From assembly GCA_015143295.1 (NCBI GenBank), contig CM026567.1:8760416-8824415 (forward strand): a stretch of 64,000 bases of DNA, written 5' to 3'. The translations under genes were made by a program, and so were the position numbers. The number at the start of each line of letters is the position of its first letter. Position 1 is the first letter of the stretch. Positions 6,579 to 64,000 of the stretch are shown here, in pieces. Origin of the DNA: Tetracentron sinense (Eukaryota; Streptophyta; Magnoliopsida; Trochodendrales; Trochodendraceae). The notes beneath the pieces were generated by a model that worked only from the letters and a program-made list of their open reading frames with translations, did not search any database and was not told the origin of the DNA.

Positions 6579-6726
6579 GTACGCAGTTGTAGCTCATTTA
6601 ATTATCCGTGAATTAAACTGTTAAGTATTAATTGATTGTGTACGTACTTGGCATGTTATATATGTATATATACCTACATGTATACACTGTTGATGCACGG
6701 ATTGACTCCGCTAGTTAAAATTTCAG
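6579..6726 (+). other. T1 gag-pol intron candidate (148 bp)
   Basis: Starts GTACGC directly after GTGCAAG and ends ATTTCAG. It is AT-rich. Its ends and its position in the polyprotein are identical in T3, and homologous blocks are present in T2 and T4. Removing it places ...VVQG directly before TLLVNEYLA, the normal gag-protease junction of this clade. Confidence 0.75.
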
Positions 6727-14049: not shown

Positions 14050-14191
14050 GTACGCAAAAAATTATAAACTCTTCGAGTGAAAATTGATGGTTGCTGTAAA
14101 GTATATGTATTCTTACGTGTATATTATCCTACCTATACTCTATGTATGTTTTTGCTTGAAACTTATTGATGTAGCTAATTACAATGCACAA
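14050..14191 (+). other. T2 gag-pol intron remnant (acceptor AG changed to AA)
   Basis: The donor GTACGC is intact. The 3' end reads GCACAA|GCGTTTTG, whereas T4 reads GCACAG|GCGCTTTG, so the acceptor G has become A. The rest is AT-rich and about 142 bp. Confidence 0.65.
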
Positions 14192-23231: not shown

Positions 23232-25074
23232 GAGGAGAGGGTTAGAGAGTTCCTTTTTATATTTTGATAGGTGGGCATGTCCACCTTTACTTTGATTGTA
23301 TTTGGTATATGTTAACTTGGAAAACTATTTGGAGTTATAGAAGAAAAGAAAAAGTTGGCTTATACTTCCGCACTTATGTTTAGTTTCCGCGCTCTGATTA
23401 TCATTGTATTATATTATGTTTAGCCTCTTGCATTACAGGATGGTTTGACAGGTACACGTAGTCACCTCTAAAGTATCTCTAAACTCCTAGGGGGTATTTT
23501 GGGGCGCGACAGTTCACAACACAACATGTGTGGCACTGTTCACAGCACAACGTGTGTGGCACTGTTCACAACACAACGTGTTCGGCACTGTTCACAGCAC
23601 AACGAGTCAGCACTATTCACAGCACAACGAGTCAGCACTGTTCACAGCACAACGTGTGTGGCACTGTTCACAGCACAACGTGTTCAGCACTCATGTTTTT
23701 ACAAACATTTCAGTAAGGGTATTAGGGTCTTTTGGTCGGTCCACTCTTACCTTAAGAGTTTAACCCGAGCCTTTAGGGCATCATTCGACACTTAGAGAGT
23801 TTGAGAGAATAGGAGAAAGGGGAAAAGGCGATTCCAAACTAGGGTTTCCATTTTAGAGAGAAATCAAAGGGTTTTGAGACCCTAGATCACTTCCAGTCCG
23901 GTTGTTCTTCAAGATCTCGGCTCAAGCTCGTGTAAAGCTCGTGTTCCGAGCTAGGGCAGCAACTCACAGTCGTTTGGAAGAGGGATTTCTTCCTCATCTC
24001 TTCAAGGTCGGTACTTTTTACTACCCTCCTTGTCATAGTTCCTCTTTCCCTTCTTTTCTCTTTATTTTCCTTTATTTACACAATGTAATATGAGATGGAT
24101 GGTTGTGAATGGTGAATGGAGATGGAATGGGCGACTGGATGCCAATGGTTGTGTGTGATGAACAAATGGGGAAGGGCATTGTTCCAATAATGAACATACA
24201 TGTATGATTTGAGTAAAACCCATCTAGAAAAGCATGTTGTAGGGTAAATCCATAATGAACACACCATGTTTGATGAAATGCCAAGGTGAATACAGTGAGC
24301 TGTAAATTAGGAAATGCATGCCTATTAAATTATGAATATTGCTAGGGACTATGATAGTGTGTTTCTTGCTTTCCCTAAATGATATGAATATTACGTTGCT
24401 CGATCATTGATGTTATATGTGTTGTGAAATTACCCAAATGTCATGTTTAAATTTAAATGCAAGTATGTACACGGTTCCCACGAGCACTGCATGCATGAGA
24501 TGATTTTATCGAGGTTTTCAAGAACTTGGTTAGAGGTGGGACATATCCTACGATATGTTTTACCTCGCTTTTCACAAGAAGACAAGAACCAACAATTCCA
24601 CGAGGGGTCTCCCCTCACTCACAAGTGCATATCATGAAGAAGGGCCTCCCTTCCCTCGCAAGTACATTCATATCATGAAGAAGGGTCTCCCTTCCCTCGC
24701 AAGTGCATTGCATAAAGAAGGGTCTCCCTTCCCTCTCAAGCGCATCTCACAAGGACATCTCACAAGTGTATCTCACAAGTTACATGATCACAAGCAAGCA
24801 CGCATGACATGCATGACATGACACGACATACAAGAATCAAGCAAGATAGACAAGACAAGCTTTCAAGTACGAAAAGAGATTTCAAGCCAAGTCAAGTGCA
24901 CGATGTTTTCAAGATGTTTTATCGGTTTTCTACGAATTACAAGCATGATTATAAATTGCTTTACTTCCTTGTATGATATGAATTGTTTCCTGCTTTATGT
25001 ATGCTATCCGTATGCTATGACTGTTGGTTAGTATTTAGTACCCGCTGAGTATTCCAAGCTCAGCCGTACTTCTT

Positions 25075-25194
25075 ATGTCGGCAGGTTCTGAGGGAGCTGC
25101 TGCTCCGTTTGATGTTTGTACTCCTGGTCCATGGGTGGAGGAGGAGTACGTCGAGGAGCCTTTGGAGGAACCTCCGGTTGAGGGCTATCAGTAG
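25075..25194 (+). CDS. LTR micro-ORF, T3 5' LTR
   Basis: 39 codons, ATG TCG GCA GGT ... CAG TAG; nearly identical in residues to the T1 copy (A16T). It lies about 305 bp before the LTR end. Confidence 0.6.
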   Translation: MSAGSEGAAAPFDVCTPGPWVEEEYVEEPLEEPPVEGYQ

Positions 25195-25503
25195 GTGGTG
25201 TTAGATTCTGAGTGGATTAGCTGTGGGTGAGATGAGAGTTTATGTCCATGTATTTTGGCGGGTCTGTCTGCATTTTCTTTTGGTTACTTTTTGTATAAAA
25301 CTTGGATTTGCGTATATATATACATAGAGGTTTGGTAGACTTCCGCCGTGCCATGTTAGAGTATGTTTCCGCTGTTTTTGTCCTCTATTGTAAATGCTCT
25401 GTGGGTTTTTGCAGGATGGTTTGTCAAGCAAGTCATGTAAGCCATGATTAGTCGTGCAAAGTTCACTCTAACTCCTAGGGTGGGTTTCGGGTCACGACAG
25501 AAG

Positions 25504-25860: not shown

Positions 25861-27100
25861 ATGAGGCGGGGCACACGGGGTTGTGGACCACATACCAGAG
25901 CTTCCTCTTCTTCACGGGATGAGGATGAGCAGCCGGACCTCTCTCAGGTCTTAGGCTCTATTGCTGAGACACTCGCCATACTGGCAGCTCGGCAGGCTAT
26001 ACCATCATCGGCAGCACCTACTCCACCGCCTGCAGCTCCAGTACATCGTACCGCTGGAGTTGAGGCATTCAGGAGATTGAGGCCTCCATCCTTCCATGGG
26101 AGTGTGGACCCTCTTGTTGCGGAGGCATGGATCCTCCAGATGGAGAAGATATTTGCGGTGCTCTCTCCTACAGAGGAAGAGAAAGTAGCATGGGCAGTCT
26201 TCATGCTAGAAGGTGAAGCCCACCATTGGTGGTTGTCCGTATTGAGGACACGGGACTTGACCATGGAAGGTCAACCGTGGACTTGGGAGGAGTTTAAGGA
26301 TACGTTCTATAAGAAGTATTTTCCGATTGGAGCACGGGAAAAGAAAGAGAGAGAATTCATCAACCTTGAGCAAGGTTCGATGTCTGTGGTCACTTATAAG
26401 GCCAAGTTCTCGGAGCTATCACGCTTCGCGACAGATATGATTGCCACCGAGGTAATGAAGGCGAGGAGGTTTGAGCAAGGGCTCAAAGGTGTTATCATGG
26501 AGAAGGTTTCGGTTTTCAGACATGCTACCTACCCTGAGGTAGTAGACAAGGCCTTATTGGTCGAGCCCAATTCAGAGGCCGTGTCCAAGAAGAGGGAGTT
26601 GGCGAGAGGCCAACCTAGTAGTTCAGCACCTCCAGAGAGGCGGGCTCGTACCGGCCCTTATCAGTATGCGTGGCCAGCACCACCGATGAGGCCATCTTAT
26701 GCGCCTCCAGCTCCACGGCAGTATATGCCTCAGGCACCGCGACCTCAGGCTCTTCCGGCCCCACGGCCTGTTGCACCTCAGACGATGAGGTATGCTCCAC
26801 CTCCGACTTTTACACACGAGGTCTGCACTTCATGCGGCCGAAGGCACCCGGCAGGAGATTACCGAAGGGCATCAGGTGGATGCTTTCATTATGGTCGCCA
26901 GGGCCATATGATCACTGATTGCCCCAGTCGGCATTTACCAGGCCAGTCTCAGGGGATTAGGCCACCAGCACGCCCAGCAGGATCATATCAGGCGTCATCT
27001 CAGACTACCCGGTCTACACCTCAGTCTCGTCAGGCGAACCAGGGGCGAGTTTTTGCCTTGACAGAGGGTGATGCACTTGCATCTGACGATGTGGTGCAAG
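25861..27100 (+). CDS. gag: T3 Gag (exon 1 of Gag-Pol)
   Basis: Structural polyprotein that would form the virus-like particle and package RNA. Starts MRRGTRGCGPH, homologous to the starts in T1 and T4. The retrotransposon gag domain spans roughly residues 70-200 (WILQMEKIF, HHWW, WTWEEFKDTFYKKYFP, FINLEQGSMSV), followed by a proline-rich linker. The nucleocapsid has two zinc motifs, each damaged: CTSCGRRHPAGDY from residue 322 (T4 has Cys at the last ligand) and CFHYGRQGH from residue 341 (Tyr344 where T4 has Cys). Exon 1 ends in phase 1 at GTGCAAG. If the intron is retained, Gag gains about 45 hydrophobic residues and stops at 27240. These Cys-to-Tyr changes probably impair RNA binding. Confidence 0.85.
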
Positions 27101-27248
27101 GTACGCGTTTGGAGTTATTTTCTTTATTCGTGATTGTTATGTTATGTTTTATTCTTTGTGTACGTACTTGGCATGTTATATATGTATATATATACCTACA
27201 TGTATACACTGTTGATGCATGGATTAACTCCGCTAGTTAAAATTTCAG
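27101..27248 (+). other. T3 gag-pol intron candidate (148 bp)
   Basis: GTACGC...ATTTCAG, AT-rich, with a TTAAC branch-like site about 20 nt before the acceptor. Its length is not a multiple of three, so it shifts the frame: only the spliced form joins Q-G with T-L-L-V of protease. Same length and ends as in T1. I infer splicing from sequence only. Confidence 0.75.
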
Positions 27249-30200
27249 GAACCCTACTAGTCAACGAGTATTTGGCTCGAGTGTTGATCGATACCGGGTC
27301 TACTCATTCGTTTGTCTCGCCGAGTTTTTCAGAAGGCTTTTCTGTAGAGCCAGGTCAGCTAGAACCGGAGTTAGCCATTTCGACTCCTCTTGGTAAAACA
27401 GTATTGGCAGATAAAGTGTATAGAAATAGTGTGGTCCAAGTTGGAAGCCACGAGTTGGCGGTTGATCTCATCGTCCTTGGATTCCAAGACTTTGATATTA
27501 TATTGGGAATGGAATGGTTAGCAGCACATCATGGGCATGTAGCTTGCTTTGAGAAAATGGTACTCTTCAAGCCAGTAGAAGGAAAACCATTCCACTTTCG
27601 CGGGTTGAAAAGTAGATCTATTGCTCGTTTTACGGCGTTGAGCTTAGCTAACCCCGAGGTAAAGGACTCATCGACTATTCCGGTTGTGAGTGAGTTCCTG
27701 GATGTATTTCCAGAGGAGTTGCCAGGATTGCCTCCAGATAGGGAGATTGAGTTTGTGATCGAGCTTGCACCAGGCACAGCTCCTATTTTCAGAGCTCCAT
27801 ATAGAATGGCCCCTATCGAACTCAAGGAGTTGAAGACTCAGTTGGAGGAATTGCAAGGCCTTGGCTTCATTCGACCAAGTGTCTCACCGTGGGGTGCCCC
27901 GGTGTTGTTTGTTAAGAAGAAAGATGGCTCGATGCGGATGTGCATCGATTATAGGCAATTGAACAAAGTCACTATAAAGAATAGGTATCCCTTGCCTAGG
28001 ATTGATGACTTGTTCGATCAGTTGAAGGGAGCGAGATTTTTCTCGAAGATAGACCTTCGATCGGGTTATCACCAGTTGAAGATTAAGGTGGAAGATGTTC
28101 CCAAAACTGCTTTCAGGACTCGGTATGGACACTACGAGTTCTTGGTAATGCCTTTTGGACTCACGAACGCACCGGCAGCCTTTATGGATTTGATGAACCG
28201 GGTATTTCGGCCATATCTTGATAGGTGCGTGATTGTATTTGTTGATGACATTTTGGTCTATTCCCAGACACGGGAAGATCACACACGCGACCTATGCCTT
28301 GCTTTGGAAATGCTAAGAGAGCACAAGCTATACGCCAAACTTAGCAAGTGTGAGTTTTGGTTGGAAGAGGTGGCATTCCTAGGCCACGTTGTTTCTGCAG
28401 AAGGTATATCGGTAGATCCAAAGAAGATCGAAGCAGTTATGAGTTGGGCGAGGCCCAAGAGTGTCACGGAGATACGCAGCTTTCTTGGGTTGGCAGGCTA
28501 CTACAGGAGATTTGTAGAGGGTTTCTCTAGCCTTGCAGCACCGCTTACTTACCTGACAAGGAAGAACGCCAAGTTTGTATGGAGTGATAAGTACGAGATC
28601 AGTTTCACGGAACTGAAGAAGAGGCTTACTACAGCACCTGTCCTTACTGTGCCATCCGGACCTTATGGGTATGAGGTGTATAGTGATGCCTCACACGTTG
28701 GACTTGGGTATGTACTCATGCAGCACAAGAAAGTCATTGCCTATGCATCAAGGCAGTTGAAGGAGCATGAGAAGAATTATCCCACGCACGACTTGGAGCT
28801 TGCGGCGGTCGTGTTTGCACTTAAGATTTGGCGTCATTACCTTTATAGGGTGGAGTTCTATGTGTTCACGGATCACAAGAGCCTCAAGTATCTCTTTTCC
28901 CAAAAGGAGCTGAATCTAAGGCAACGGCGTTGGATGGAATTTTTGAAAGACTATGATTGTACCATTCAATACCACCCGGGTAAAGCAAATGTAGTGGCTG
29001 ATGCTTTGAGTAAAAGACCTCTGGGGTTATTAGCATGCATGTTAGTGCAAGAATGGAAGCTACTTGAAGACTTGGCGAATTTGGACATTAGTGTGAATGA
29101 CTCTGTCCGTAGTCCTATCTTAGCAAATGTCACGGTTCGGCCATACATTATAGATTTGATCCAAGAATACCAAGCCACGGATGCTGAATTATTGGCTTAT
29201 CGGGACAAGGAAGTTGCTAAGGGTAGTGAGGACTTCTCTCTCACTAGTCGGGGTGCTATCACATTCAAGGGAAGGCTGTGCGTCCCAGCCAATGCAGATC
29301 TTCGAAGAGAGATTTTGGATGAAGCACACCGTTCGAAGTACACAGTGCATCCAGGGGGTACAAAGATGTACCGGAACCTCAAGAGTCACTTTTGGTGGCG
29401 GAATATGAAGAGGGATGTTGCAGAATATGTGGCACGGTGCTTAGTGTGCCAACAGGTGAAAGCAGAACACATGCGACCCGCCGGTCTATTGCATTCTCTT
29501 CCTATTCCCGAGTGGAAATGGGAGAACATATCCATGGATTTCATAGTTGGCTTACCAAAGATGACAAGGGGCTCAGATGCAATTTGGGTTGTAGTAGACC
29601 GTCTGACGAAGTCTGCGCACTTCTTACCTTACCGAACTACTTTCAACTCTAGCCAGTTGGCCGCTCTATACATCAAGGAAGTAGTGAGGTTACACGGAGT
29701 GCCCGTCAGTATTGTGTCAGATCGGGATCCAAGATTCATATCACGATTCTGGAAAAGTTTCCAGGAGGCTATGGGTTCCCGACTTGATTTCAGCACCGCT
29801 TTTCATCCACAGACGGATGGACAAACCGAGAGAGTGAACCAAGTCATTGAAGACATGCTTCGGACTTGTATGTTGGATTTCAGAGGCAGTTGGGAAGAGC
29901 ACTTGCCTTTGATTGAATTTGCCTATAATAACAGCTATCAGGCAAGTATCCAAATGGCACCATTTGAGGCCTTGTATGGGCGAAGTTGTAGGTCTCCTCT
30001 CTATTGGGATGAGGTAGGAGAAAGGAAAGTACTTGGTTCGGAGTTGATTGAGCAAACTGCAAACACAGTTAAGATCATTCGGTATCGATTGAAAGCCGCT
30101 CAAGATCGCCAGAAAAGTTATGCGGACACGCACCGTTGGGACTTGGAATTTCAAGTAGGGGATCAAGTTTTTGTGAAAGTATCTCCTAGCAAAGGGATCA

Positions 30201-30574
30201 TGAGATTTGGAAAGCGAGGCAAGCTCAGTCCTCGGTATGTTGGGCCTTTTGAGATTATCGCACGAGTTGGTGAGGTTGCTTACAGAGTAGCTCTCCCCCC
30301 TCACATGGCCGCAGTTCACAACGTCATTCATTCATCTATGCTTCGGAAGTACATTGCAGATCCCTCACATGTCATAGACTTGGAACCGTTGGAGATTCGA
30401 GAGGACCTCACCCTGATTGAAAAGCCAGTTCAGATTTTGGATAGAAGAGATCAGGTGCTTCACAACAAGACAATCCCTTTGGTCCTTGTGCAATGGCAGC
30501 ACCATGCTCGGGAAGAAGCTACATGGGAGCGTGAGGCCGAAGTCAGAGCAAAGTACCCAGAATTAACTGAATGA
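27249..30574 (+). CDS. pol: T3 Pol (exon 2): protease, RT, RNase H, integrase, chromodomain
   Basis: Open throughout. Spliced to gag it gives a 1521-residue polyprotein, a usual size for this clade. Protease: DTGSTHSF with Asp428. [12 protein letters not shown], then FVDD at 745-748. RNase [23 protein letters not shown]; a Cys found in T1 and T4 (LGCVLMQ) is Tyr. Integrase: HHCC zinc site ([10 protein letters not shown]...CLVC), then catalytic D1177, D1238 and E1274 (D-35-E spacing), then [16 protein letters not shown]. The C-terminus has a chromodomain-like tail (LVQWQHH, EEATWE, KYPEL) thought to steer integration to heterochromatin. Without splicing this frame has no conserved ATG of its own. 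Confidence 0.92.
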
Positions 30575-30674: not shown

Positions 30675-31139
30675 TGTAGAGCCCCTGACCTTTTCACAGT
30701 TAATGCATGACATTTTCGTTGTCATTTTGCCTTTAAAGAGGTAAAATTAATAAATAAGGTAGAAATTGGAAATTTTTTCATGTCAGAAATGTCCCTTTTC
30801 GAAGTACGAGCCCAACGCAAGTTGAATCGTCAAAATCGGACGAACGAGTCAAAAGATATGGCCAAAACAGTCTGGACCTTTAGGAAATCGTAGCTCGGAA
30901 GGCGCTAAGGACGTAGCTCGGAAGGCGCTAAGGACGTACCCTGATAACGTATTCGTTGTGCAACAGTCATGCAGCAGATAACATATTCGTTGTGTAACAG
31001 ACAATGGTATGTTGTGCTGCAGACAACGTGTACGTTGTACAGCAGACAACGGGCACGTTGTACATAAGACAACGGACTACGGGTTTACCACTATGCACGA
31101 CACGACGTGACAACGGGCTCGGCACCCTTCACAACGGAC

Positions 31140-31412
31140 AACGTGTTCGGCACTGTTCACAGCACAACGTGTGTGGCATTGTTCACAACACAACGTGTGT
31201 GGCACTGTTCACAGCACAACGTGTGTGGCACTGTTCACAGCACAACGTGTTCGGCACTGTTCACAGCACAACGTGTGTGGCACTGTTCACAACACAACGT
31301 GTTCGGCACTGTTCACAGCACAACGAGTCAGCACTATTCACAGCACAACGAGTCAGCACTGTTCACAGCACAACGTGTGTGGCACTGTTCACAACACAAC
31401 GTGTTCAGCACT
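31140..31412 (+). repeat. 25-26-bp tandem array, T3 3' LTR
   Basis: Ten units, CACTGTTCACAGCACAACG followed by TGTGTGG, TGTTCGG or AGTCAG. Any frame reads open through it, but only as a repeat artefact. Confidence 0.9.
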
Positions 31413-32795
31413 CGTGTTTTTACAGAAATTTCAGTAAGGGTATTAGGGTCTTTTGGTCGGTCCACTCTTACCTTAAGAGTTTAACCCGAGCCTTTAGGGC
31501 ATCATTCGACACTTAGAGAGTTTGATAGAATAGGAGAAAGGGGAAAAGGCTATTCCAACCTAGGGTTTCCATTTTGGAGAGAAATCAAAGGGTTTTGAGA
31601 CCCTAGATCACTTCCAGTCCGGTTTTTCTTCAAGATCTCGGCTCAAGCTCGTGTAAAGCTCGTGTTCCGAGCTAGGGCAGCAACTCACAGTCGTTTAGAA
31701 GAGGGATTTCTTCCTCATCTCTTCAAGGTCGGTACTTTTTACTACCCTCCTTGTTATAGTTCCTCTTTCCCTTCTTTTCTCTTTATTTTCCTTTATTTAC
31801 ACAATGTAATATGAGATGGATGGTTGTGAATGGTGAATGGAGATGGAATGGGCGACTGGATGCCAATGGTTGTGTGTGATGAACAAATGGGGAAGGGCAT
31901 TGTTCCAATAATGAACATACATGTATGATTTGAGTAAAACCCATCTAGAAAAGCATGTTGTAGGGTAAATCCATAATGAACACACCATGTTTGATGAAAT
32001 GCCAAGGTGAATACAGTGAGCTGTAAATTAGGAAATGCATGCCTATTAAATTATGAATATTGCTAGGGACTATGATAGTGTGTTTCTTGCTTTCCCTAAA
32101 TGATATGAATATTACGTTGCTCGATCATTGATGTTATATGTGTTGTGAAATTATCCAAATGTCATGTTTAAATTTAAATGCAAGTATGTACACGGTTCCC
32201 ACGAGCACTGCATGCATGAGATGATTTTATCGAGGTTTTCAAGAACTTGGTTAGAGGTGGGACATATCCTACGATATGTTTTACCTCGCTTTTCACAAGA
32301 AGACAAGAACCAACAATTCCACGAGGGGTCTCCCCTCACTCACAAGTGCATATCATGAAGAAGGGCCTCCCTTCCCTCGCAAGTACATTCATATCATGAA
32401 GAAGGGTCTCCCTTCCCTCGCAAGTGCATTGCATAAAGAAGGGTCTCCCTTCCCTCTCAAGCGCATCTCACAAGGACATCTCACAAGTGTATCTCACAAG
32501 TTACATGATCACAAGCAAGCACGCATGACATGCATGACATGACACGACATACAAGAATCAAGCAAGATAGACAAGACAAGCTTTCAAGTACGAAAAGAGA
32601 TTTCAAGCCAAGTCAAGTGCACGATGTTTTCAAGATGTTTTATCGGTTTTCTACGAATTACAAGCATGATTATAAATTGCTTTACTTCCTTGTATGATAT
32701 GAATTGTTTCCTGCTTTATGTATGCTATCCGTATGCTATGACTGTTGGTTAGTATTTAGTACCCGCTGAGTATTCCAAGCTCAGCCGTACTTCTT

Positions 32796-32951
32796 ATGTC
32801 GGCAGGTTCTGAGGGAGCTGCTGCTCCGTTTGATGTTTGTGCTCCTGGTCCATGGGTGGAGGAGGAGTACGTCGAGGAGCCTTTGGAGGAACCTCTGGTT
32901 GAGGGCTATCAGTTGGTGGTGTTAGATTCTGAGTGGATTAGCTGTGGGTGA
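32796..32951 (+). CDS. LTR micro-ORF, T3 3' LTR, stop lost
   Basis: Same frame as at 25075, but the stop TAG is TTG, extending the frame by 12 residues to TGA at 32949-32951. Codon 35 neighbourhood changes CCG to CTG. It probably reflects relaxed constraint after insertion. Confidence 0.5.
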   Translation: MSAGSEGAAAPFDVCAPGPWVEEEYVEEPLEEPLVEGYQLVVLDSEWISCG

Positions 32952-33225
32952 GATGAGAGTTTATGTCCATGTATTTTGGCGGGTCTGTCCGCACTTTCTT
33001 TTGGTTACTTTTTGTATAAAACTTGGATTTGCGTATATATATACATAGAGGTTTGGTAGACTTCCGCCGTGCCATGTTAGAGTATGTTTCCGCTATTTTT
33101 GTCCTCTATTGTATATGCTCTGTGGGTTTTTGCAGGATGGTTTGTCAAGCAAGTCATGTAAGCCATGATTAGTCATCAAAAGTTCACTCTTACTCCTAGG
33201 GTGGGTTTCGGGTCGCGACATCTTC

Positions 33226-33768: not shown

Positions 33769-35500
33769 ATGACAAACAATGTTTTTGCAACAAGCCTAGG
33801 AGAAGGACAGTCCACCACTAGACCACCTCTGTTTAATGGAGAAAATTATAACTATTGGAAAACTAGGATGATGTATTACATTCAAGCTCTAGATTATGAG
33901 TGTTGGAGAGTAATAGTCAATGGCCCTCATCTTCCCACAAAAACTGTGGATGATGTCAAAATTCCTAAGGTAGAGGAAGAATGGAATGAAGCTGACATTA
34001 AGCTCATTCAAATCAATGCTAAAGCTATTAGCAACCTCTACTATGCCTTAAGTCCCCAAGAATTTAACAGAGTTTCTGGATGTGACTCTGCTAAAGAAAT
34101 ATGGGATAAACTGAAAGTCACCTATGAAGGAACTAATCATGTTAAAGAAGAAAAGATTAGCATGTTTATTCACAAGTATGAATGATTCAAAATGGAAAAA
34201 GAAGAATCTATCGGTGATATATTCACCAGATTTACTAACATTTTAAATGGTCTTAAATCTTTGGGTAAAGTGTATTCTAATGCAGAAAATGTAAGAAAGA
34301 TTTTAAGATCACTGCCAAAGGAATGGACTCCCAAAGTAATAGCAATCCAAGAAGCTAAGGACCTCACCAAACTGCCTATGGATGAGCTGCTGGGATCTCT
34401 TATGACTCATGAAGTCATAATGAAGGATCAAATGCCTGATGAACCTAGAACCAAGAAAGGGCTGGCTCTCAAGTCTACTCAAGTTGAAATTAGTGATGAG
34501 GAAACCAGCAGTGATGATGAAGATATATCCTTGATGGAAAGAAGGTTCAAAAGGTTCCTCAAGCATAGGAAGAACTTCAAAAAAAGACCATACAAGGAGT
34601 TCTCAAAAGAAGTGAACAAAGCTGAAGCTAGCAAGAAGGAACCTCTCACGTGTTATGAATGGAAGAAGCCAGGCTACATAAGGACTGACTGCCCTTAACT
34701 CAAGAAGAGCCAAAAGCACAAGAAAAAGGCTATGATGGCAACTTGGGATGACTCGGAGGGAAGCAAGTCGAAAGATTCAAGTGATGAAGAAGTGGCAAAT
34801 CTGTGCCTCATGGCAAATGAGGATGAGGTAACTTCTTCGCCAAATAATTCTCTCTCATATAATGAAATAAGAGAAAGATTTGATGAACTCTACTCTGAAT
34901 TTGGTAGAATAGCTAAATTAAATAAATTTTTTAAAAAAGAAATTCACACTCTCTCACAATCATGTGAAAATCTACAAAAAGAAAAGAGTGTGTTAGCCAT
35001 TGAGAATGAGGAATTCCGTAAGAAATTAAATAATATTAAAAATGTTCCACATAACTCACCATATGAATGTGATGAGTTAAAAGTTAAAGTCAATGACTTG
35101 ACCAATACTATCCTCACATTCACAAATGGTCAAAAGAACCTAGAAAGACTTTTAGGACAACAAAGATGTGTTTTTAACAAGGCTGGACTTGGTTATAGTA
35201 CTTTTTCAAAACAAAAAGATTATCAAAATTTCTTTACAAAATTAAGTAATCACCAAACTCCACCATCCACCTCATTTTATAATGGTAAAATAATTAGGAA
35301 AGTTTGGGTTCCAAAAGGAACATCTTCTCTTTCAAAATCTAACCACAAAGGACCAAGAATGATATGGGTTCCCAAGGGAACTAATCCTCCCAAACCACAA
35401 CCCATCACTTTGGGTACCATCCAAAACTGTTTGGGTATCAGGGGAAAAGTATCTTGGAGTTACTTGAATTGGATGTGTAGGTATGCTTCAAATCAAGAAT
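33769..35500 (+). pseudogene. gag: SA gag pseudogene (copia, SIRE-like)
   Basis: One frame from ATG ACA AAC AAT with two stops: TGA at 34183 and TAA at 34696 (CAA-to-TAA; SB has CAA). It holds the copia gag signature (PPLFNGENYNYWKTRM, IWDKL, LPKEW), a DDE-rich acidic stretch, a damaged zinc knuckle (CYEWKKPGYIRTDC, where CX2C and His are expected) and a Lys/Glu-rich region (residues about 330-450) that could form a coiled coil. Near the 3' end the frame differs from that of protease, so a frameshift lies around 35430-35510. SB carries a related but differently damaged copy. Confidence 0.85.
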
Positions 35501-35504
35501 TTTC

Positions 35505-38500
35505 AAGACAACATGGTTCTTGGATAGTAGATGCTCAAGGCATATGACCGGGAACAAGGAACTATTTGCATCAATCACTCCAAAGGATGGCGGTCATGTA
35601 ACATTTGGAGACAATGCTAAAGGGAAGATCATTGGCAAAGGTAACATTGGTAAGAATAAATCCGTTTTTATTGAGAATGTACAACTTGTTGATGGACTCA
35701 AGCATAATCTCATTAGTATTAGTCAACTTTGTGATAAGGGACTAAATGTTTCATTCAAGTCAAATATCTGCTTGATTAAGGATAAAGATAATCTAAATAC
35801 TTTGTTTGTAGTACATAGAAATGAAAATGTTTATACCTTAGATTTTGATGAACTTAAATCTCAAAACATGATATGTCTCTCTGCTATAGATGAAGCTAGC
35901 TGGTTATGGCATAGGAGACTAGGACATGCTAGCATGGATCTTTTGTCTAAACTCTCTAAAAATGAATTAGTTAAAGGATTACCTAAAACTAAATTTATCA
36001 AAGACAAAATCTATGATGCTTGTCAACTTGGAAAACAAATAAAATCTTCATTTCAAACCAAGAAAATGATTTCTACCACTAGGTCCTTAGAACTTTTGCA
36101 TATGGATCTTTTTGGTCCAAATGAAGTAGCTAGCCTAGCTGGAAAAACTTATGCTTTTGTTATAGTGGATGATTTTTCAAGATACTCATGGGTACTATTT
36201 CTTTCTCATAAAAATGAAGCACCCTCTCTATTTAAAATTTTTTGTAAAAGAGTTCAAAATGAAAAAGGTTATTCTATTAACAACATAAGAAGTGATAGAG
36301 GAGGAGAATTTAAAAATAAAGAACTTGAATCATTTTGTGATGAAAATGGTTTTAATTATAATTTTTCAACACCTAGAACTCCACAACAGAATGGTGTAGT
36401 AGAAAGAAAGAATAGATCTCTTCAAGAAATGGCTAGAACAATGTTTAATGAAAATAAATTACCAAATTATTTTTGGGCTGAAGCCATTAACACATCATGT
36501 TATGTAATTAATAGAGTTGTTATAAGAAGCAAATTAAATAAAACTCCCTATGAGCTTTGGAATGGAAGAATCCCTAATATAAGTTATTTTAAGGTGTTTG
36601 GATGTAAATGCTTCATACTTAATGATAAAAAACATCTTAAGAAATTTGATGCTAAATCTGTGGAAGGAATCTTCTTAGGATACTCTACTAATAGCAAAGC
36701 ATATAGAGTGTTTAACAAGAAATCATTAATTGTTGAAGAATCAATTCATGTAGTTTTTGATGAATCAAATCCTTTTAACAAAATCAATACTAATATGGAT
36801 GATGAAATTGATAATCTTCCAAAAGCAATATCAAATTTACAAATCAACAAAGAAAATAAAAATGATGAAGAAAAAGAAAAATCAAGTAACAGCTCCATTG
36901 AAATAGATAATGAAGAAGAAATTAAAAATGAAGAATCCTATAAACTTCTTAAAGCTTGGAAATTAATAAAAGATCACCCTAAGGATCTAATACTTGGTAA
37001 TATGGAACAAGGGGTTAGAAGAAGAAGAAATTTAATGAATCTTGCTTTCCTAAGTCAAATTGAACCTAAAAATGCCTTAGACGTTATTGAAGATGACTCG
37101 TGGGGCATTGCTATGCAAAAAGAGTTAAATCAATTTGATAGAAATCAAGTTTGAGATCTAATACCTAAACCAAATAACAAATCTATTATTGGAAAAAAAT
37201 GGGTCTTTAGGAATAAAAAGATGAAAATGGAAATGTAGTTTAAAATAAAGCAAGATTAGTAGCTCAAGGTTACAACCAAGAAGAGGGGATAGATTATGAT
37301 GAAACATTTACCCCGGTTGGTAGACTAGAAGCTATAAGAATGTTACTTGCATTTGCTAGTCATAAAGAATTTAAACTATATCAAATGGATGTAAAAAGTG
37401 CATTTCTTAATGGGTATATAAATGAGAAAGTTTATGTAAATCAACCTCCTTGTTTTGAAAATCATAAATTTCCTAATAATGTATTTAAGTTAACTAAAGC
37501 CTTATTTAGATTAAAGCAAGCTCCAAGCGATTGGTATGATAGGCTAAGTAGCTTCTTAATTGAAAACTTATTCACAAGAGGTAAAATTGACACAACTTTA
37601 TTCATAATGACCAAAAATGATGATATACTAATAATCCAAATCTATGTAGATGACATCATATTTGGATCAACAAAAGAATCTTTCTGTAGAATGTTTGCTA
37701 AAATAATGCAAAAAGAATTTGAAATGAGTATGATGGGTGAATTAACATTTTTCTTAGGACTTCAAATCAGACAAACCAAACGAGGAACTTTCGTTAATCA
37801 AGCTAAATATACTAAAGAACTACATAAAAAATTTGGAATGGAAAACACTAAAATAATGGATACTCCTACGAGTCCATCAACCAAACTTGATAAGGATGAA
37901 AAAGAGAAAAGTATTGATGAAAAACACTATAAAGGCATGATTGGAAGCCTTTTGTATCTCACTGCAAGCAGACCTGACATTATGTTTAGTGTTTGCATTT
38001 GTGCAAGATTCCAATCCTGTCCAAAAGAATCTCACTTAACTGCTGTAAAAAGAATCTTTAGATACTTACTTGAAACAATTGATTTAGGCTTATGGTATCT
38101 AAAGGACACAAGCTTAGATCTAATAAACTATTCAGATGCAGATTTTCCTGGATGCAAAGTAGATAGAAAAAGTACTAGTGGAACTTGTCACTTTTTAGGA
38201 CATTCTCTTGTTTCATGGTTTAGTAAGAAACAAAATTCAGTGGCCTTATCCACAATTGAGGCTGAGTACATGGCAGCTGGACTTTGTTGCGCTCAAACTC
38301 TCTATATGGAACAACAGCTAGAAGATTTTAAACTTATCTATACTAAAATTCCTATTAAGTGTGATAACACAAGTGCTATTTGTATGACTAAGAATCCTAT
38401 TCAACACTCAAGGACTAAGCACATTGAAATAAGATATCATTTTATTAGAGATCATGTGCAAAATAGAAATGTTATCTTGGAATTTGTTGATACTATTAAT

Positions 38501-38595
38501 TAGCTTGTTGATATCTTTACCAAACCTCTACAATCTGATAGGTTCAGTGCTTTGATAAGAGAATTGGGAATGACTAGTCTAAATGATCTAACTTA
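35505..38595 (+). pseudogene. pol: SA pol pseudogene (protease, integrase, RT, RNase H; copia order)
   Basis: Protease reads WFLDSRCSRHMTG: the DSG active site is DSR, although SB keeps DSG. Integrase: HRRLGHAS, a zinc site missing one Cys (YDACQLGKQ), then LHMDLFGP, SDRGGEF and QQNGVVERKNR supplying D, D and E. A stop at 37152 and a frameshift near 37220-37240 precede RT (KSAFLNGYINEKVYV, YVDDIIFGS) and RNase H (YSDADFPGCKVDRKSTSG, ALSTIEAEYMA, TKHIEI). A final TAG at 38501 precedes LVDIFTKPL. Copia order (integrase before RT) and motifs support the SIRE/Maximus clade. Confidence 0.9.
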
Positions 38596-39686: not shown

Positions 39687-41980
39687 TGTTGGACATATAT
39701 GCCATCGAAAGCCAATAAGAGACTTTTCTATGTTGATTAGACAAGCATCATATTCACACAATCAACTATAAAGGGTATTTATATTAATTACTGTCTCATA
39801 TGATGATGACATAAAGTTTCATAGGTAACATTGTAGGAAAATCATGCAAAGGTTGCGAGTAGATATGATTTTCCGGTTCCTTGTAAATCTAATATTGTTC
39901 GAAGCCTCTAGAGTACTGGTTAGGCACCGTACTTCATCATGGCTTGCACATGTGTAGTTCTATGAGATAGTGTGATGAATCTCATTCACAGAGAGTGGTG
40001 ACTCTTGACTAACATGTGAAGTGGATACCCTATGAAATACACTTTTAGATTGTATTAGGGTTATCCATTTGACAAATTGTCCTTAGACCTGAGAGGTTAA
40101 CATCTTCTCAGACATCTGTCTATATGGCTTTGATGTGCCAATCGGCAATGTCCAATACACAGGACTAACTTCTGGTACGTTGGGTCATGTACACAATGTT
40201 TGGAGAAGTGTGTAAACACTCAATAAGGAATCCACAACTCCTTAATTGGAGATAATGATATCAAGGTGATACTTGTTGAACTGAACTGTTAAATCCAGTA
40301 CTGGTGCTTTTCGGTAAAATGGTTTTTATCGAAGTTGATATTTTTAATATGGAAAAGTATATATCAATATATATGTCAGTTCTTTTCTAATGTTTCTTCA
40401 AAAGTGTTTTGGAGGTTCAGTTCAATGAAAAAGTAATCATGAGAAAGGGTTCTATTCATAAGCTAGGGGCTAAGACAGTGAAATTGTTCCAATCCCGGAA
40501 GCTTACAAGTGATATCGGAATGTGGAATGATTTATTTCTAAATATATTGTGAGATGGTACTTACAAGCAATTCTCTAATTTTTTGGAGGTTAATCACATT
40601 GTGTTAATAGACATTAATTGTGATTGGTGGAAGTCCAGGGATATAGATAAATTCTATAATCCTAATAGAGTGTAGGAAATGTGTTCCCTAGTAACAATGC
40701 TTCAACCAAAAGGTTGAGTACTTGGTCCCACAACCGGAAATAGGAGATCCCTTTAGATCCCACACACAAGGACCTTCTTAAAGTATTTAATTTAATTTAT
40801 AATTAAATTAATTAATTTCTCTAAGTAATCACTATATGGTATAGTGAAGCTCTAAAAGGTGGAATCACATTGGATGTGAAAAACCAAATGGGTAGGACCC
40901 ATTGGGAATTATTATAAAAGAATAATTCAAGTGACCAAGAGGGTTTTGGAAACCCTTTAGGCGTGTGGGGTGGGACCCACCTAGGGTGGGATGCCTACCT
41001 CAAGGAGGAATAATAATAATTGTTATTATTATTTAATTAGTATCTAATAACTACTCTCCTTATTGGATAAGGTTAGTTAGTTAGTTAGAGTTAGTTACTA
41101 ATTGAAGATTCTTTGTTAGACAAGGAGTCTATTAGTTTCTTGCTAATCAAGGAATCCTAATTAGATTAGGATAAGGATAAGATTAGTTGGATACTAATGG
41201 ATAAGGTTAGTTTCTTTTAAGATTAATCCTAATTGGAATAGGAGAATAATCAATAAAGGAAACTATTGAGGAATCCTAATTGGATTAGGATAAGGTTAAT
41301 GAACACGTAAAGCTGCATGAACACAAGGATTCACTTGATAAACACACGGATGAGTTTGCAGTAAAAACCATCATAAATATAGACAAATGCTATCTCATGC
41401 GAATGACTCGTAATGGGGCATCATGACACCATGCTCAGATGGCATTGCATGAAACTAAGTCAATTGGTCGTTTAACAGGCAATGTATCTGACTGAGTCAC
41501 AGAGGTCCCGTAGTGAGCATCATGCTTAGATATGTGTTGAACCGTGTGGTAAGACACCTTGCTCGGATGACATGTCATTATGAAGCTACAAGTGTCCCAT
41601 CACCGTTTTCCGACATATCAGATAAGACATCATTTGACATTGCATTCACGATGTTTTTTACTTGATATGGCACTGGTCGTTTCTCTTGATCTTTCACTTG
41701 ATAAGTCACCGCATGGAATTTTGAAGGGCCATTAGCTTCCATTAGAGAAAGCTTTAAAGGAAAAAGAAGGTTCGTGTGAATCGATAGGAGACTTGACACT
41801 TATGAAGTTTTGCGAGTACTATTCTTATGTGGATTTGACTTAACAATTTCAAAGTCGTAAAGGTGAATATTATTCTAACCTTCATTGAATAAAATCAATT
41901 AGAATCTTAGTCAGATCTTGGGATTCGATGTATGCCCCCCAAGAACTGTGTTTCTAAAATTAAAAAGAGGCATACTTTCA
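39687..41980 (+). repeat. C1 5' LTR with replaced segment
   Basis: 2294 bp. Compared with the 3' LTR it lacks about 46 bp near 40019 and carries a 407-bp unrelated block (41304-41710) in place of 286 bp. AT-rich, no gene. Confidence 0.9.
41304..41710. other. Foreign 407-bp block in C1 5' LTR
   Basis: Collinearity with the 3' LTR ends after GTTAATGAA and resumes at GCATGGAATT. The block is less AT-rich than its surroundings. On the minus strand, 41578-41710 is an open stretch (about 44 codons, VTYQVKDQEKRPVPYQVKN) that could be a captured fragment. Origin not recognised. Confidence 0.6.
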
Positions 41981-47382: not shown

Positions 47383-49580
47383 TGTTGGACATATATGCCC
47401 TTGAAAGCCAATAAGAGACTTTTCTATGTTGATTAGACAAGCATCATATTCACACAACCAACTATAAAGGGTATTTATATTAATTACTATCTCATATGAT
47501 GATGACATAAAGTTCCATAGGTAACATTGTAGGAAAATTATACAAAGGTTGCGAGGAGATATGATTTTCCGGTTCCTTGTAAACCTAATATTGTTCGAAG
47601 CCTCTAGAGTATTGGTTAGGCGCCGTACTTCATCATGGCTTGCACATGTGTAGTTCTATGAAATAGTGTGATGAATCTCATTCACAGAGAGTGGTGACTC
47701 TTGACTAACATGTGAGTATATGTAGCAAGTACATAATACTGAACGGGGTTACTAGTGGATACCCTATGGAATACACTGTCAGATTGTATTAGGGTTATCC
47801 ATTTGAAAAATTGTCCTTAGACCTGAGAGGTTAACATCTTTTCAGACATCTGTCTATATGGCTTTGATGTGCCAATCGGCAATGTCCAATACACAGGACT
47901 AACTTCGGGTACGTTGGGTTATGTACACAATGTTTGGAGAAGTGTGTAAACACTCAATAAGAAATCCACAACTCCTTAATTGGAGATAATGATATCAAGG
48001 TGATACTTGTTGAACTGAACTGTTAAATCTAGTACTGGTGCTTTTCGGTAAAATGGTTTTTATTGAAGTTGATATTTTTAATATGGAAAAGTATATATAA
48101 ATATATATGTCAGTTCTTTTCTAATGTTTTTCAAAAGTGTTTTGGAGGTTCAGTTCAATGAAAAAGTAATCATGTGAAAGGGTTCTATTCATAAGCAAGG
48201 GACTAAGACAGTGGAATTGTTCCAATCCCGGAAGCTTACAAGTGATATCGGAATGTGGAAGGATTTATTTGTAAATATATTGTGAGATGGTACTTACAAG
48301 CAATTCTCTAATTTCTGGAGGTTAATCACATTGTGTTAATGGACATTAATTGTGATTGGTGGACGTCCAGGGATATAGATAAAATTCTATAATCCTAATG
48401 GAGTGTAGGAAAGGTGTTCCCTGATAACAATGCTTTAACCAAAAGGTAGAGTACTTGATCCCACAACCGGAAATAGGAGATCCCTTTAGATCCCACACAC
48501 AAGGACCTTCTTAAAGTATTTAATTTAATTTATAATTTAATTAATTAATTTCTCTAAGTAATCACTATATGGTATAGTGAAGCTCTAAAAAGTGGAATCA
48601 CATTGGATGTGAAAAACCAAATGGGTAGGACCCATTGAGAATTATTATAAAAGAATAATTCAAGTGACCAAGAGGGTTTAGGCGTGTGGGGTGGGACCCA
48701 CCTAGGGTGGGACGCCCACCTCAAGGAGGAATAATAATAATTGTTATTATTATTTAATTAGTATCTAATAACTACTCTCCTTATTGGATAAGGTTAGTTA
48801 ATTAGTTAGAGTTAGTTACTAATTAAAGATTCCTTGTTGGACAAGGAGTCTATTAGTTTCTTGCTAATCAAGGAATCCTAATTAGATTAGGATAAAGATA
48901 AGATTAGTTAGATACTAATGGATAAGGTTAGTTTCTTTTAAGATTAATCCTAATTGGAATAGGAGAATAATCAATAAAGGAAACTATTGAGGAATCCTAA
49001 TTGGATTAGGATAAAGTTAATGAATTATAATTGGATTACAATTCAAGCAACCAAGAGGGAACTTATATAAAGGAGTGGATGCCCAGCCCTTTAAGGAATA
49101 TAATTCTCCAGAATTTTTTCTTCTCTCCCTCTCCTCAAGTTTACGTCCCGCCCTCTCCCCCTTTGAGGGTGTATGGTCACCCTTCCCCATCTTCCTTTTT
49201 GTTTGGTTTTTGATCTTGATGATCAAGAACAAGTTCTTTGAAGATCAAGATTGGATCTTGTTTGATCAAGAAAGGTTCTTGGATCAAAGAAAAGAAGAAA
49301 ATATAAAAAAGCATGGAATTTGGAGGGGCCATTAGCTTCCATTAGAGAAAGCTTTAAAGGAAAAAGAAGGTTCGTGTGAATCGACAGGAGACTTGATACT
49401 TGTGAAGTTTTGCGATTACTATTATTCTGTGGATTTGACTTAACAATTTCAAAGTCGCAAAGGTGAATGTTATTCTAACCTTCATTGAATAAAATCAATT
49501 AGAATCTTAGTCAGATCTTGGGATTCGACGTATGCCCCCCAAGAACTGTGCTTCTAAAATTAAAAAGAGGCATACTTTCA
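47383..49580 (+). repeat. C1 3' LTR
   Basis: 2198 bp, TGTTGGACATA...GGCATACTTTCA. Complete reference copy for the family. Contains the segment (49025-49310) that is replaced in the 5' LTR. Confidence 0.95.
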
Positions 49581-59612: not shown

Positions 59613-60849
59613 ATGAGACGCAATACCCGGGGTCGCGGGTACAACACGAGGGGTAATGGAGGTGATGCTCCATCGGGTGATGATCAACCCGACTTTGCCC
59701 AAGCATTCGCATCCATAGCCGAGACCTTGGCTATGTTGGCGGCAAGGCAACCGGCCACTCCGCCTAATGCGGCACTCATACCGGCTCCTCCTAACCGAGC
59801 CCAAGCCGGGATAGAAGCTTTTCGGAGGATGAGGCCTCCAACTTTTTGTGGAAGCATTGATCCACTTGTTGCCGAGGGTTGGATCCGGCAACTTGAGAAG
59901 ATATTCTCGGTATTAGCACCTACTGAAGTGGAAAGGGTCACATGGGCCGCCTTTATGCTTGAAGGCGAGGCCGATCATTGGTGGAAGTCTGCACTTCGGA
60001 CCCGAGAGTTGACCCGGCAAGGTCAAGATTGGACTTGGGAGGAATTCTTGGAGGTTTTCAACAAGAAGTATTTTCCGGTCGGGATGAAAGAAAAGATGGA
60101 AGTCGAATTCATTACCTTGGAGCAAGGTAATATGTCCGTAGCGGCTTATGAAGCCAAATTTTCGGAGCTATCTCGATTTGCTCCACACATGATAGCGACC
60201 GAGGCTATGAAGGCCCGGAAATTCGAGAGGGGGTTGAAGGCCTACCTCAAGGATTGTGTCTCGATGTTTCGACATGAGACATATTCAGAAGTTGTGGACA
60301 AGGCATTGTTGGCCGAGTCGAATTCCGAAGAGTTCTTTAAGAAAAGAGGAATGGAGAAAGGACAGTCAAGTAGTTCAGGGGAGAAAAGGGCAAGGACTAG
60401 CTTGTATCAGTCCGCAGGGCCGGCTCAGTCACAGAGGATGTATTCGGCACCACAAGCCCCTCACTCTTTTGCTCCACCGGCTTTTCGCCCGGCTACCTCA
60501 TATGCTCCTCGCCCCGCAGTTACTCAGGCTACGGGGTATGCTCCTTCCTCCTATTTGCATGATGTTTGCACTCTTTGTGGGAGGAGGCATCCAGCGGGAG
60601 AGTGCCGGAGAGTTTCAGGAAGTTGCTTTCATTGTGGTGACCAAGGCCACATGGTCAGAGATTGTCCTCGGCGTCAATTGCCAACTCAGTCTTCAGGGAG
60701 CAGGCCCCCGGTTAGGCAGACATCTCAGCCTAGCTCTTCTCAGGCTTCGAGGGCCTCACAGTCTACCCGGCCTCCTCGCCCAGCCACACAGGGCCGAGTC
60801 TTTGCCTTATCCGAGAGAGACGCACGTGCATCCGACGATGTCGTGCAAG
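59613..60849 (+). CDS. gag: T4 Gag (exon 1 of Gag-Pol), zinc motifs intact
   Basis: The start ATG AGA CGC is chosen because T1, T2 and T3 start at the same place (MRRxTRG). The retrotransposon gag domain occupies about residues 65-200 (WIRQLEKIF, DHWWKSALR, WTWEEFLEVFNKKYFP, ITLEQGNMSVAAYEAKF). A Ser/Pro-rich linker precedes two zinc motifs: CTLCGRRHPAGEC from residue 319 and CFHCGDQGHMVRDC at 338-351, both with all ligands. The exon ends at GTGCAAG in phase 1. Reading into the intron adds only TQQF before a stop, giving a near-natural Gag of about 417 residues. It would act in cytoplasmic particles. Confidence 0.9.
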
Positions 60850-60984
60850 GTACGCAACAATTCTAGAGTCTAAGTTGTGTAAAATTTCTATAATTTATTA
60901 TGTGATTAATTATACTAAGGATTACCTATATATGATGCTTGTTGTTGTTTGAAATCTACTAATAGTAACTACTTAATCGCACAG
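60850..60984 (+). other. T4 gag-pol intron candidate (135 bp)
   Basis: GTACGC...CGCACAG, AT-rich, with CTACTAATA (a branch-site-like element) about 25-30 nt before the acceptor. The length is a multiple of three but an in-frame stop follows the donor within five codons. Splicing joins Q-G to A-L-L-V-N-E. Confidence 0.8.
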
Positions 60985-63900
60985 GCGCTTTGTTAGTGAA
61001 CGAGTGTCTCGCCCGAGTGTTGATCGATACAGGATCCACTCACTCCTTTGTGTCGCCTAGTTTCGCAAAGAGATTTTTGACTGAGGCTACTCCGTTAAAG
61101 CAGGAGTTGACCATTGCAACTCCACTCGGCAAGTCAGTTGATACGGACAAGATATTCGGGGATAGTATGGTTCAAGTGGGGGAGAATGAACTGTTAGCCG
61201 ATCTCATCGTCCTAGATTTTCAAGACTTGGATTTTGATGTCATCTTAGGGATGGATTGGTTGTCGAACCATCACGGGCATGTTGCGTGTTTTGAGAAAAT
61301 GATGAATTTCAAGCCGGAAGGGGGTAAGCCTTTTCACTTCCGAGGATTAAGAGAGAGGGACATTGCTCGCCTCGCAGCCTTGAGTGTAACAAACCTAGAA
61401 GCACAAAACTCTTCGGCCATTCCGGTCGTGAGTGATTTCTTGGACGTGTTTCCGGAGGAACTTCCCGGGTTACCTCCGAATCGGGAGATTGAGTTCGCTA
61501 TAGAGCTTACTCCGGGCACCGCTCCGATTTCAAGAGCCCCATATAGAATGGCCCCGATAGAGCTTGAAGAATTGAAGAAGCAAATTGAGGAGTTACAACA
61601 ACTTGGCTTCATCCAACCAAGTGTGTCGCCGTGGGGAGCTCCGGTCCTTTTTGTAAAGAAGAAAGACGGGTCGATGAGAATGTGTATAGACTACCGTCAG
61701 TTGAACAAGGTAACTATCAAGAATCGTTATCCCTTGCCAAGGATCGATGACTTGTTCGACCAACTGAAGGGAGCGAGATTCTTCTCCAAAATTGACCTTA
61801 GATCGGGGTATCATCAATTAAAGATCAAGGCGGCAGATGTTCCGAAGTCGGCTTTCAGGACTCGGTATGGGCACTACGAGTTCCTTGTCATGCCTTTTGG
61901 GCTGACGAATGCACCGGCGGCGTTCATGGATTTGATGAACCGGGTGTTCCGATCGTACTTGGATCGATGTGTGATTGTGTTCATAGATGACATTTTGGTG
62001 TATTCCCAGACACGGGAAGATCACGCACGAGACCTTCGTCTTGCTCTGGAGATATTGAGAGAGCATAGGCTATACGCTAAGTTAAGCAAGTGTGAATTTT
62101 GGTTGGAGAAGGTGGCATTCCTAGGCCACGTAGTGTCGGCCGAGGGTATTTCTGTTGACCCGGCAAAGATAGAGGCAGTTATGATATGGGAGAGACCCAA
62201 GAGCGTCACGGAGATACGTAGTTTTCTTGGGTTGGCAGGCTATTATCGGAGATTCGTGGAGGGATTCTCCAGTTTGGCTGCACCTCTCACTTACCTGACG
62301 AGAAAGAATGCTAAGTTTAGTTGGAGCGACAGATGCGAAGCGAGCTTCCAAGAGTTGAAGAAACGCCTCACCACGGCCCCCGTCCTTAGTGTGCCATCCG
62401 GGAGTGGTGGTTTTGTGGTTTATAGTGATGCCTCGCACGTGGGGTTGGGATGTGTACTTATGCAGCACGGCAAAGTCATTGCTTACGCCTCCAGGCAATT
62501 GAAAGAGCATGAGAAGAATTATCCCACTCACGATTTAGAGCTCACCGCGGTTGTGTTTGCATTGAAGATTTGGCGACATTATCTCTATGGGGAACAGTTC
62601 GACGTATTTACGGACCATAAAAGCTTGAAGTACCTGTTCTCTCAAAAGGAATTGAATTTAAGGCAGAGGAGATGGGTAGAGTTTTTGAAAGACTACGAAT
62701 GTTCCATTCAATATCATCCGGGCAAGGCGAACGTTGTCGCCGATGCTCTTAGCCGGAAGCCCACTGGACTTTTGGCGCACATGATGCTGAGGGAATGGAG
62801 GTTGTTAGAAGATGCATCCAACCTCGACATTAGTTTTAGTCTCCCTACTTTTGGGCCAGTAATGGCTAACATCACAGTTAGGCCATATATCCTAAGCATG
62901 ACCAGGGAGTTGCAGGGAATGGATGCCGAGCTACTGTCTTACCGAGACCAGTCAGTTAAAAGTGGCAGCAAGGATTTTGCGGTGAGGGATGATGGAATTA
63001 TCACTTTCAAGGGAAGAGTATGTGTCCCAGCCGATGAGAAGCTTAAGCGAGAAATCTTGTACGAGGCTCACCGGTCCAAGTACACCGTTCACCCCGGGGG
63101 TACCAAGATGTATAGGGACTTGAAGAGTCACTTTTGGTGGCGAAACATGAAGAGGGAGGTTGCGGAGTATGTGGCACGGTGTTTGGTATGCCAACAGGTG
63201 AAAGCAGAGCATTTGAGACCAGCGGGTCTTTTGCAGTCCCTCCCTATTCCCGAGTGGAAATGGGAACATATCTCTATGGATTTCATCGTGGGGTTGCCGA
63301 AGACGGTTAGGAAGACTGATGCTATATGGGTAGTTGTTGATAGACTCACGAAGTCCGCTCATTTCTTACCGTACCGGACTACATTCAACTCCAATCAGTT
63401 AGCGGAGCTATACATCAAGGAAATAGTCCGATTACACGGGGTGCCAGTGGGTATTGTGTCCGATAGAGACCCAAGATTCACATCCAGGTTTTGGAAAAGT
63501 TTTCAAGGTGCAATGGGCTCCCGATTAGACTTTAGCACATCTTTCCACCCACAGACCGACGGACAAACCGAGAGGGTGAATCAGGTTATTGAAGATATGC
63601 TCCGAGCATGTATGCTAGATTTCAAGGGAAGTTGGGAAGATCACCTACCTTTGGTGGAATTCGCTTACAACAACAGTTATCAAGAAAGCATGCAAATGGC
63701 GCCTTTCGAGGCTTTGTACGGAAGGAGTTGTAGATCCCCGTTGTATTGGGATGAAGTGGGAGAAAGAAAGATTTTGGGCCCCGAGTTAATTGAACAAACC
63801 GCGGATAGGGTCAAGCTTATCCGGGAGAGGTTAAAGACCGCACAAGATAGACAGAAAAGCTCTGCCGACAACCGAAGGAGGGACCTTGAATTCCGAGTCG

Positions 63901-64000
63901 GTGATTTTGTGTTTGTAAGGATTTCACCAACCAAAGGTGTTATGCGATTCGGGAAGAGAGGCAAGCTTAGCCCAAGATATGTGGGTCCGTTCGAGATCAT
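60985..64000 (+). CDS. pol: T4 Pol (exon 2), open to the window edge
   Basis: I read it by eye and saw no stop. Protease [23 protein letters not shown] follows. [32 protein letters not shown]. RNase [33 protein letters not shown]. Integrase: [12 protein letters not shown] and CLVCQQ (zinc site), [23 protein letters not shown] (D, D, E), [13 protein letters not shown], then [16 protein letters not shown] at the edge. The chromodomain is expected next but not visible. T4 is closer to T2 than to T1 and T3 in several residues (for example KPTG after ADALSR, and [13 protein letters not shown]). Confidence 0.92.

Follow-up and report, generated by a model that had tools for sequence, protein, structure and literature searches.

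How does a retroelement whose Gag and protease are separated by an interrupted reading frame still make a Gag-Pol polyprotein? This question is raised by a window of 64,000 nucleotides from Tetracentron sinense (GenBank assembly GCA_015143295.1, contig CM026567.1, positions 8,760,416 to 8,824,415 of the forward strand), which holds four copies, here T1 to T4, of putative Ty3-type chromoviruses, retroelements bounded by long terminal repeats (LTRs). Plant chromoviruses with a single open reading frame (ORF) are highly abundant in plant DNA, and how they make more Gag than Pol is poorly known. In T1 to T4 an AT-rich block breaks the reading between Gag and protease. From the sequence features described below, we consider it highly probable that this block is a retained U2-type GT-AG intron lying in the glycine codon that joins the two, in such a way that unspliced RNA would give Gag and spliced RNA would give Gag-Pol.

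The original prediction had placed the block at the same codon in the four copies, always starting with GTACGC after an identical GTGCAAG. Both points were confirmed, as the 13-mer GTGCAAGGTACGC that spans this start was found four times in the window, on the + strand only, and a tblastn search using the gag tail and pol head of T4 detected four strong gag-protease junctions, all of them with the block. No block-free copy was detected when this search looked for one in the window; the sole further pol-head match at E < 0.1 was weak (E 0.016, - strand, 18951-19121) and had no gag tail. The identity of the first six bases in 4/4 copies has a chance of around 1e-6 for three subfamilies taken as independent draws, or around 1e-4 when the GT is presupposed, with the caveat that T2 and T4 are perhaps not fully independent. 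At the 3' end, the expected TTTCAG or GCACAG was present in T1, T3 and T4, which all finish in CAG, and was wrong for T2, which ends in GCACAA. GT...AG at the conserved codon, in phase 1, is consequently found in three of the four copies, T2 having the GT without the AG. The block lengths (135, 142 and 148 nt) do not differ in threes, which was counted in favour of an intron.

Removal of the block rejoins around 15 codons per side, giving VVQG-TLLVNE in T1 and T3, VVQG-VLLVNE in T2 and VVQG-ALLVNE in T4, so that the predicted joining of VVQG to LLVNE was recovered in every copy. When the block is retained, a stop follows the Gly after 3 (T1), 11 (T2), 45 (T3) and 4 (T4) residues; an early stop had been foreseen in all copies and was found, although within limits of 3-45 residues rather than 5-45 codons. 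The net frame shift across the block is one in T1-T3 and zero in T4, where the block is a multiple of three and the reading is therefore broken by seven in-frame stops, without a change of frame. With these corrections for the T2 end, the stop range and the T4 frame, the presence of the block at the four gag-protease junctions is confirmed. A separate observation concerns T3, where the retained gag frame (27101-27238) adds a 45-residue tail that appears hydrophobic by eye, probably a by-product of U-rich sequence.

The position of the block was further analyzed by comparison with related proteins. For this, 199 proteins were fetched, one of the source lists being the best 120 of 7955 matches; some are NCBI gene models, whose introns the annotator may have removed. 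A junction profile was made of 28 non-identical sequences, from the 32 of the 199 proteins in which the catalytic motif was present and preceded by 40 residues or more, and its members overlap with the 81 proteins that span the junction. When gag tails and pol heads were searched against this profile as separate pieces, the gag tails ended at position 34 in 4/4 copies, and the pol heads started at position 35 (T1 and T3) or with residue 2 at position 36 (T2 and T4). The two pieces adjoin, and thus the block separates two consecutive residues in all four. Among the 89 alignments provided by the 81 junction-spanning proteins, none had an insertion at the junction, and a few held small insertions elsewhere, in agreement with the claim that VVQG-[TA]LLVNE is contiguous in the usual relatives. 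These share the junction motif VVTG-T...D(T/P)GS, and jgi/ena entries such as P0080, P0096, P0116 and P0120 each consist of one long frame. In Pfam searches, the gag domains lie upstream of the block, and RVP_2, reverse transcriptase (RT), RNase H and the integrase zinc-binding domain lie downstream, the RVP_2 match on the pol side starting at profile position 22 (T3) or 26 (T4).

The closest Gag in two gag searches was P0121, with 60% identity over 57% of the T4 Gag, from a 942-nt ENA contig. This protein keeps ASDDVVQGT, departs from the usual protease reading just past the same Gly, and ends 10 residues past that Thr as ASDDVVQGTSSQSFITAWY, without an LLVNE-like protease start. Such an end is as would be expected of an intron retained at the same place; it may be a stop codon, or the protein may run out at the edge of its contig. 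The next Gag, P0183, ends ahead of the junction and is uninformative, and the more distant P0136, P0184 and P0185 read across it uninterrupted. No relatives were found in viral contigs searched with the T4 pol piece, the gag alignment and P0096. As a side observation, 8 of the 11 plant Gag proteins examined from P0128-P0146 (e.g., P0130, with 14 members) stop short of the junction motif, soon after a second zinc knuckle, possibly representing another two-frame arrangement.

Splice-site scoring, proposed with the original prediction as a check, was carried out with general plant splice frequencies rather than a trained matrix, and with a weight for AT contrast of our own choice. Among all GTs of each stretch the block donor ranked 1/252 in T1, 1/126 in T2, 3/279 in T3 and 4/256 in T4; the acceptor ranked 2/339 in T1, 2/402 in T3 and 7/359 in T4, being absent in T2. 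When donor-acceptor pairs were ranked with the AT-contrast term, entering the top 60 donors per copy, the block was first of 1587 (T1), 1721 (T3) and 1527 (T4) pairs, in such a way that it is the best intron in the three copies with an intact AG. As T2 lacks the terminal AG, no splicing is expected at its homologous site. The composition of the block points in the same direction, with a GC content of 27-33% versus 44-54% in the 52+52 nt flanks, which means deficits of 13 (T1), 15 (T2), 19 (T3) and 26 (T4) points; the U excess over these flanks was 6, 5, 17 and 13 points, respectively. No equal-length, non-overlapping window of the coding stretches was as GC-poor as the block in any of the four copies. 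For plant introns a contrast of around 15% is quoted for both GC and U in PMC3735527, which T3 and T4 reach or come close to, whereas T1 and T2 stay below it for U.

The divergence between copies was also measured. Between T3 and T4 the ratio of nonsynonymous to synonymous differences (pN/pS) was 0.30 for gag, 0.20 for the protease piece and 0.10 for the RT piece, and over nine comparisons the values for pol were 0.10-0.26; the frames on both sides of the block are thus under purifying selection, in pol between subfamilies that carry the block. Synonymous sites are near saturation between subfamilies (pS 0.65-0.86), and the identity of block bodies between them is 0.62-0.73, with shuffled means of 0.63-0.64 and maxima of 0.73-0.75. 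Within one subfamily, T1 and T3 have clearly related bodies (0.86). The expectation of differing bodies with kept ends and phase was consequently upheld for the bodies, near saturation, and for the donor, kept in 4/4 copies, and failed for the acceptor AG lost in T2. The T1 and T3 blocks also show an uneven pattern, 84/86 positions being identical in the last part and only 37/54 just past the donor (6585-6640 versus 27107-27160), unlike their exon flanks, which match at 113/120 and 569/600 positions; recombination between subfamilies is perhaps the cause.

Four other explanations of the block were considered. That it is an intron with no role in the Gag:Pol balance, its splicing being constitutive noise or serving export or silencing escape, is improbable. 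Intron-like signals by themselves do not demonstrate regulation, which leaves room for such a reading, but the retained reading stops within 3-45 residues in 4/4 copies, so that without recoding Pol would come only from the spliced form, and an intron kept through an RNA intermediate would need some unspliced RNA. A separate translation of Pol, by internal initiation or from its own messenger RNA (mRNA), with the block as an intergenic spacer, appears decidedly improbable: in-frame ATGs are indeed present within the block ahead of the protease in T1 and T3, but in T2 and T4 the pol frame has no ATG between its last stop and the catalytic Asp, the first one coming only after that residue (14506 versus 14233, and 61167 versus 61026). 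With ATG starts as the only ones considered, the product would there lack the protease active site; moreover, the split falls inside the RVP_2 profile and not at its edge.

A recoding spacer, with Pol arising from unspliced RNA through programmed ribosomal frameshifting or readthrough of a stop, seems very improbable. Frameshifting is a common Gag-Pol strategy, which was counted in its favour, and in T3, with the gag frame open to 27238 and the pol frame open from after 27131, a single +1 shift in the overlap would join the frames. No single shift does so in T1, T2 and T4, however, and the recoding needed would be +1 in T1, T2 and T3 but net zero across seven in-frame stops in T4. A structured-RNA signal was sought in the four blocks and none was found beyond shuffles (z -1.39 to 0.15 in 4/4), and the kept GT...AG ends would be left unexplained. 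Finally, a fortuitous insertion inherited as junk by dead copies, already disfavoured, is hardly credible, since despite the damage to T1 (stop at 6756 in pol) and T2 (pol in pieces, acceptor lost), the frames flanking the block are open in T3, and in T4 up to the window edge, parts of the T3 LTRs are 98.5% and 96.7% identical, pol is under the purifying selection described above, and the donor is kept while block bodies are not. Frameshift, readthrough and ATG-based internal initiation were each disfavoured as candidates, none fitting all four copies.

The proposal of a spliceosomal-type intron between Gag and protease is thus supported by the profile adjacency in 4/4 copies, the composition, the splice-site ranks, the selection and the failure of the recoding alternatives. 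Several observations weigh against it. Donors alone rank 1, 1, 3 and 4 with the untrained matrix, and the T4 acceptor only 7/359. The U excess is small in T1 (6) and T2 (5) compared with the 15 quoted in PMC3735527, and YTRAY branch-point-like sites, present in 4/4 copies at 14-34 nt from the end, are also found in 53-61% of shuffles. The T2-T4 body identity of 0.73 is borderline, at the upper edge of the shuffles (maximum 0.75), and the end of P0121 may be that of the contig rather than a stop codon. The acceptor loss in T2 is as the decay of a dead copy would give, T2 being broken, yet it also means that one of the four copies has a destroyed splice site.

If the block is a retained intron, the element would be transcribed full length, and part of the RNA would escape splicing, serving as genome and as Gag mRNA, its Gag ending 3-45 residues past the junction, while the spliced part would be read through as Gag-Pol. 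We infer this division of Gag and Gag-Pol between the two RNAs from the reading frames, and through the block the element would probably obtain plenty of shell protein but little enzyme from a single transcript. Because the element copies through RNA, an always-removed intron would vanish in one cycle; its conservation in three subfamilies with an intact donor suggests that the unspliced RNA acts as the genome and that splicing is required to some extent. The intron would persist since mainly unspliced RNA is copied; packaged spliced RNA would yield intron-free copies, none of which is among the four in the window. We lean, with less confidence, towards a single history in which a Tekay-like chromovirus lineage independently gained the gag-protease intron before the split of the three subfamilies, now nearly synonymously saturated, kept it over many RNA-mediated cycles by splicing only part of its RNA and copying mainly the unspliced form, and also occurs in one other source or more (P0121).

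Feature coordinates are collected in the table. T3 is fairly young, with both frames intact apart from the block: its LTRs are 98.5% identical over 1991 nt without gaps (31230-33220 versus 23509-25499) and 96.7% over 511 nt (30675-31185 versus 20680-21190), and a few bases past the end of its 5' LTR lies TGGTATCAGAGC, presumably a tRNA-Met-type primer site. A single RNase H region follows RT in T1, T3 and T4 (Pfam, E <= 0.001). A chromodomain match in T3 stayed under the cut-off (20.0 against 25.1 bits, E 6.6e-4); none was listed by Pfam in T1, and T4 leaves the window. The T1 gag is split by a nested insert of around 2.2 kb (3820-6010), with relatives at 17013-17355, 39687-41303 and 47383-49580. 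Tandem arrays of around 25-26 bp are present in the T1 and T3 LTRs (1024-1206, 10605-10740, 23512-23691 and 31138-31412), with copy numbers that differ between the two LTRs of each element, and the T3 5' LTR is interrupted at its array. Broken frames resembling a Ty1/copia element (gag, integrase and RT, by eye from translations) were seen at 34192-38503.

Table. Blocks, exons and LTRs of the putative chromovirus copies in the window
Feature	Position	Strand	Remarks	Basis
T1 block	6579..6726	+	putative intron, 148 nt, GTACGC...TTTCAG	
T2 block	14050..14191	+	putative intron, 142 nt, GTACGC...GCACAA, with the donor but without the terminal AG	
T3 block	27101..27248	+	putative intron, 148 nt, GTACGC...TTTCAG	
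T4 block	60850..60984	+	putative phase-1 intron, 135 nt, GTACGC...GCACAG	
T3 5' LTR, main part	23509..25499	+	further separated part at 20680-21190	
T3 gag exon	25861..27100	+		Pfam
T3 pol exon	27249..30574	+	protease to integrase, sub-threshold Chromo match	Pfam
T3 3' LTR	30675..33220	+		
T4 gag exon	59613..60849	+	Retrotrans_gag, Ty3_capsid, zinc knuckle; open to block	Pfam
T4 pol exon	60985..64000	+	RVP_2 protease, RT, RNase H, integrase H2C2; open to window edge	Pfam

The lineage of these elements would be Tekay/Del-like. CRR, the centromeric element of rice, is a chromovirus. Its transcripts are spliced according to PMC3735527, and thus the T elements would not be the first spliced chromovirus, although in CRR splicing removes rt and creates two ORFs, unlike a gag-protease intron. 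Ordinary Tekay/Del-like chromoviruses, such as those of Beta, have the same domain order, and relatives have the junction motif; gag and pol form a single continuous ORF in Beta (PMC3605345), a usual but not strictly defining trait, whereas this reading is interrupted in 4/4 T copies. Retrosat2, placed under Tekay (PMC6317226), is described with a gag-pol ORF1 plus an ORF0 (PMC3485330). The original prediction of no report for this clade is compatible with the literature covered, in which titles and the starts of abstracts gave no gag-protease intron in Tekay, most subscription journals lying outside this coverage; it does not extend to a first spliced chromovirus.

Plant LTR elements are generally without introns, Ogre and EVD being the named exceptions (PMC12786077). 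Ogre and BARE1 had been cited in the original prediction as balancing Gag and Pol by splicing, which is borne out for Ogre (PMC6317226) and, with the opposite logic, for BARE1 (PMC3735527). In BARE1, whose intron has 104 nt and is U-rich (PMC3735527), and in EVD (PMC12786077), splicing near the end of gag also balances Gag and Pol, but the spliced RNA gives Gag only and the unspliced RNA carries one ORF. Bianca (Ty1/copia) has, like the T elements, two separated ORFs, 172 bp apart on average (PMC6317226), but belongs to the copia superfamily. The closest parallel in logic is Ogre, of the Tat lineage of Ty3/gypsy, in which some of the transcripts lose an intron between two ORFs by splicing, so that the polyprotein is joined (PMC6317226). 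In Ogre, however, the intron lies between protease and RT, whereas in the T elements the RVP_2 protease is on the pol side of the block, and the second RNase H (aRH), a trait of the Tat lineage (PMC6317226), contrasts with the single RNase H region of T1, T3 and T4. The splicing strategy is therefore already known from Ogre, and it is the position and the lineage that appear new. The question of Gag excess over Pol becomes testable with relatives that have or lack the intron at the same codon, and these would show how an RNA-replicating element can gain and keep an intron. If true, the Tekay-like gain would be another, convergent origin of a splicing-controlled Gag:Pol ratio in plant retroelements, with Gag made from the unspliced RNA.
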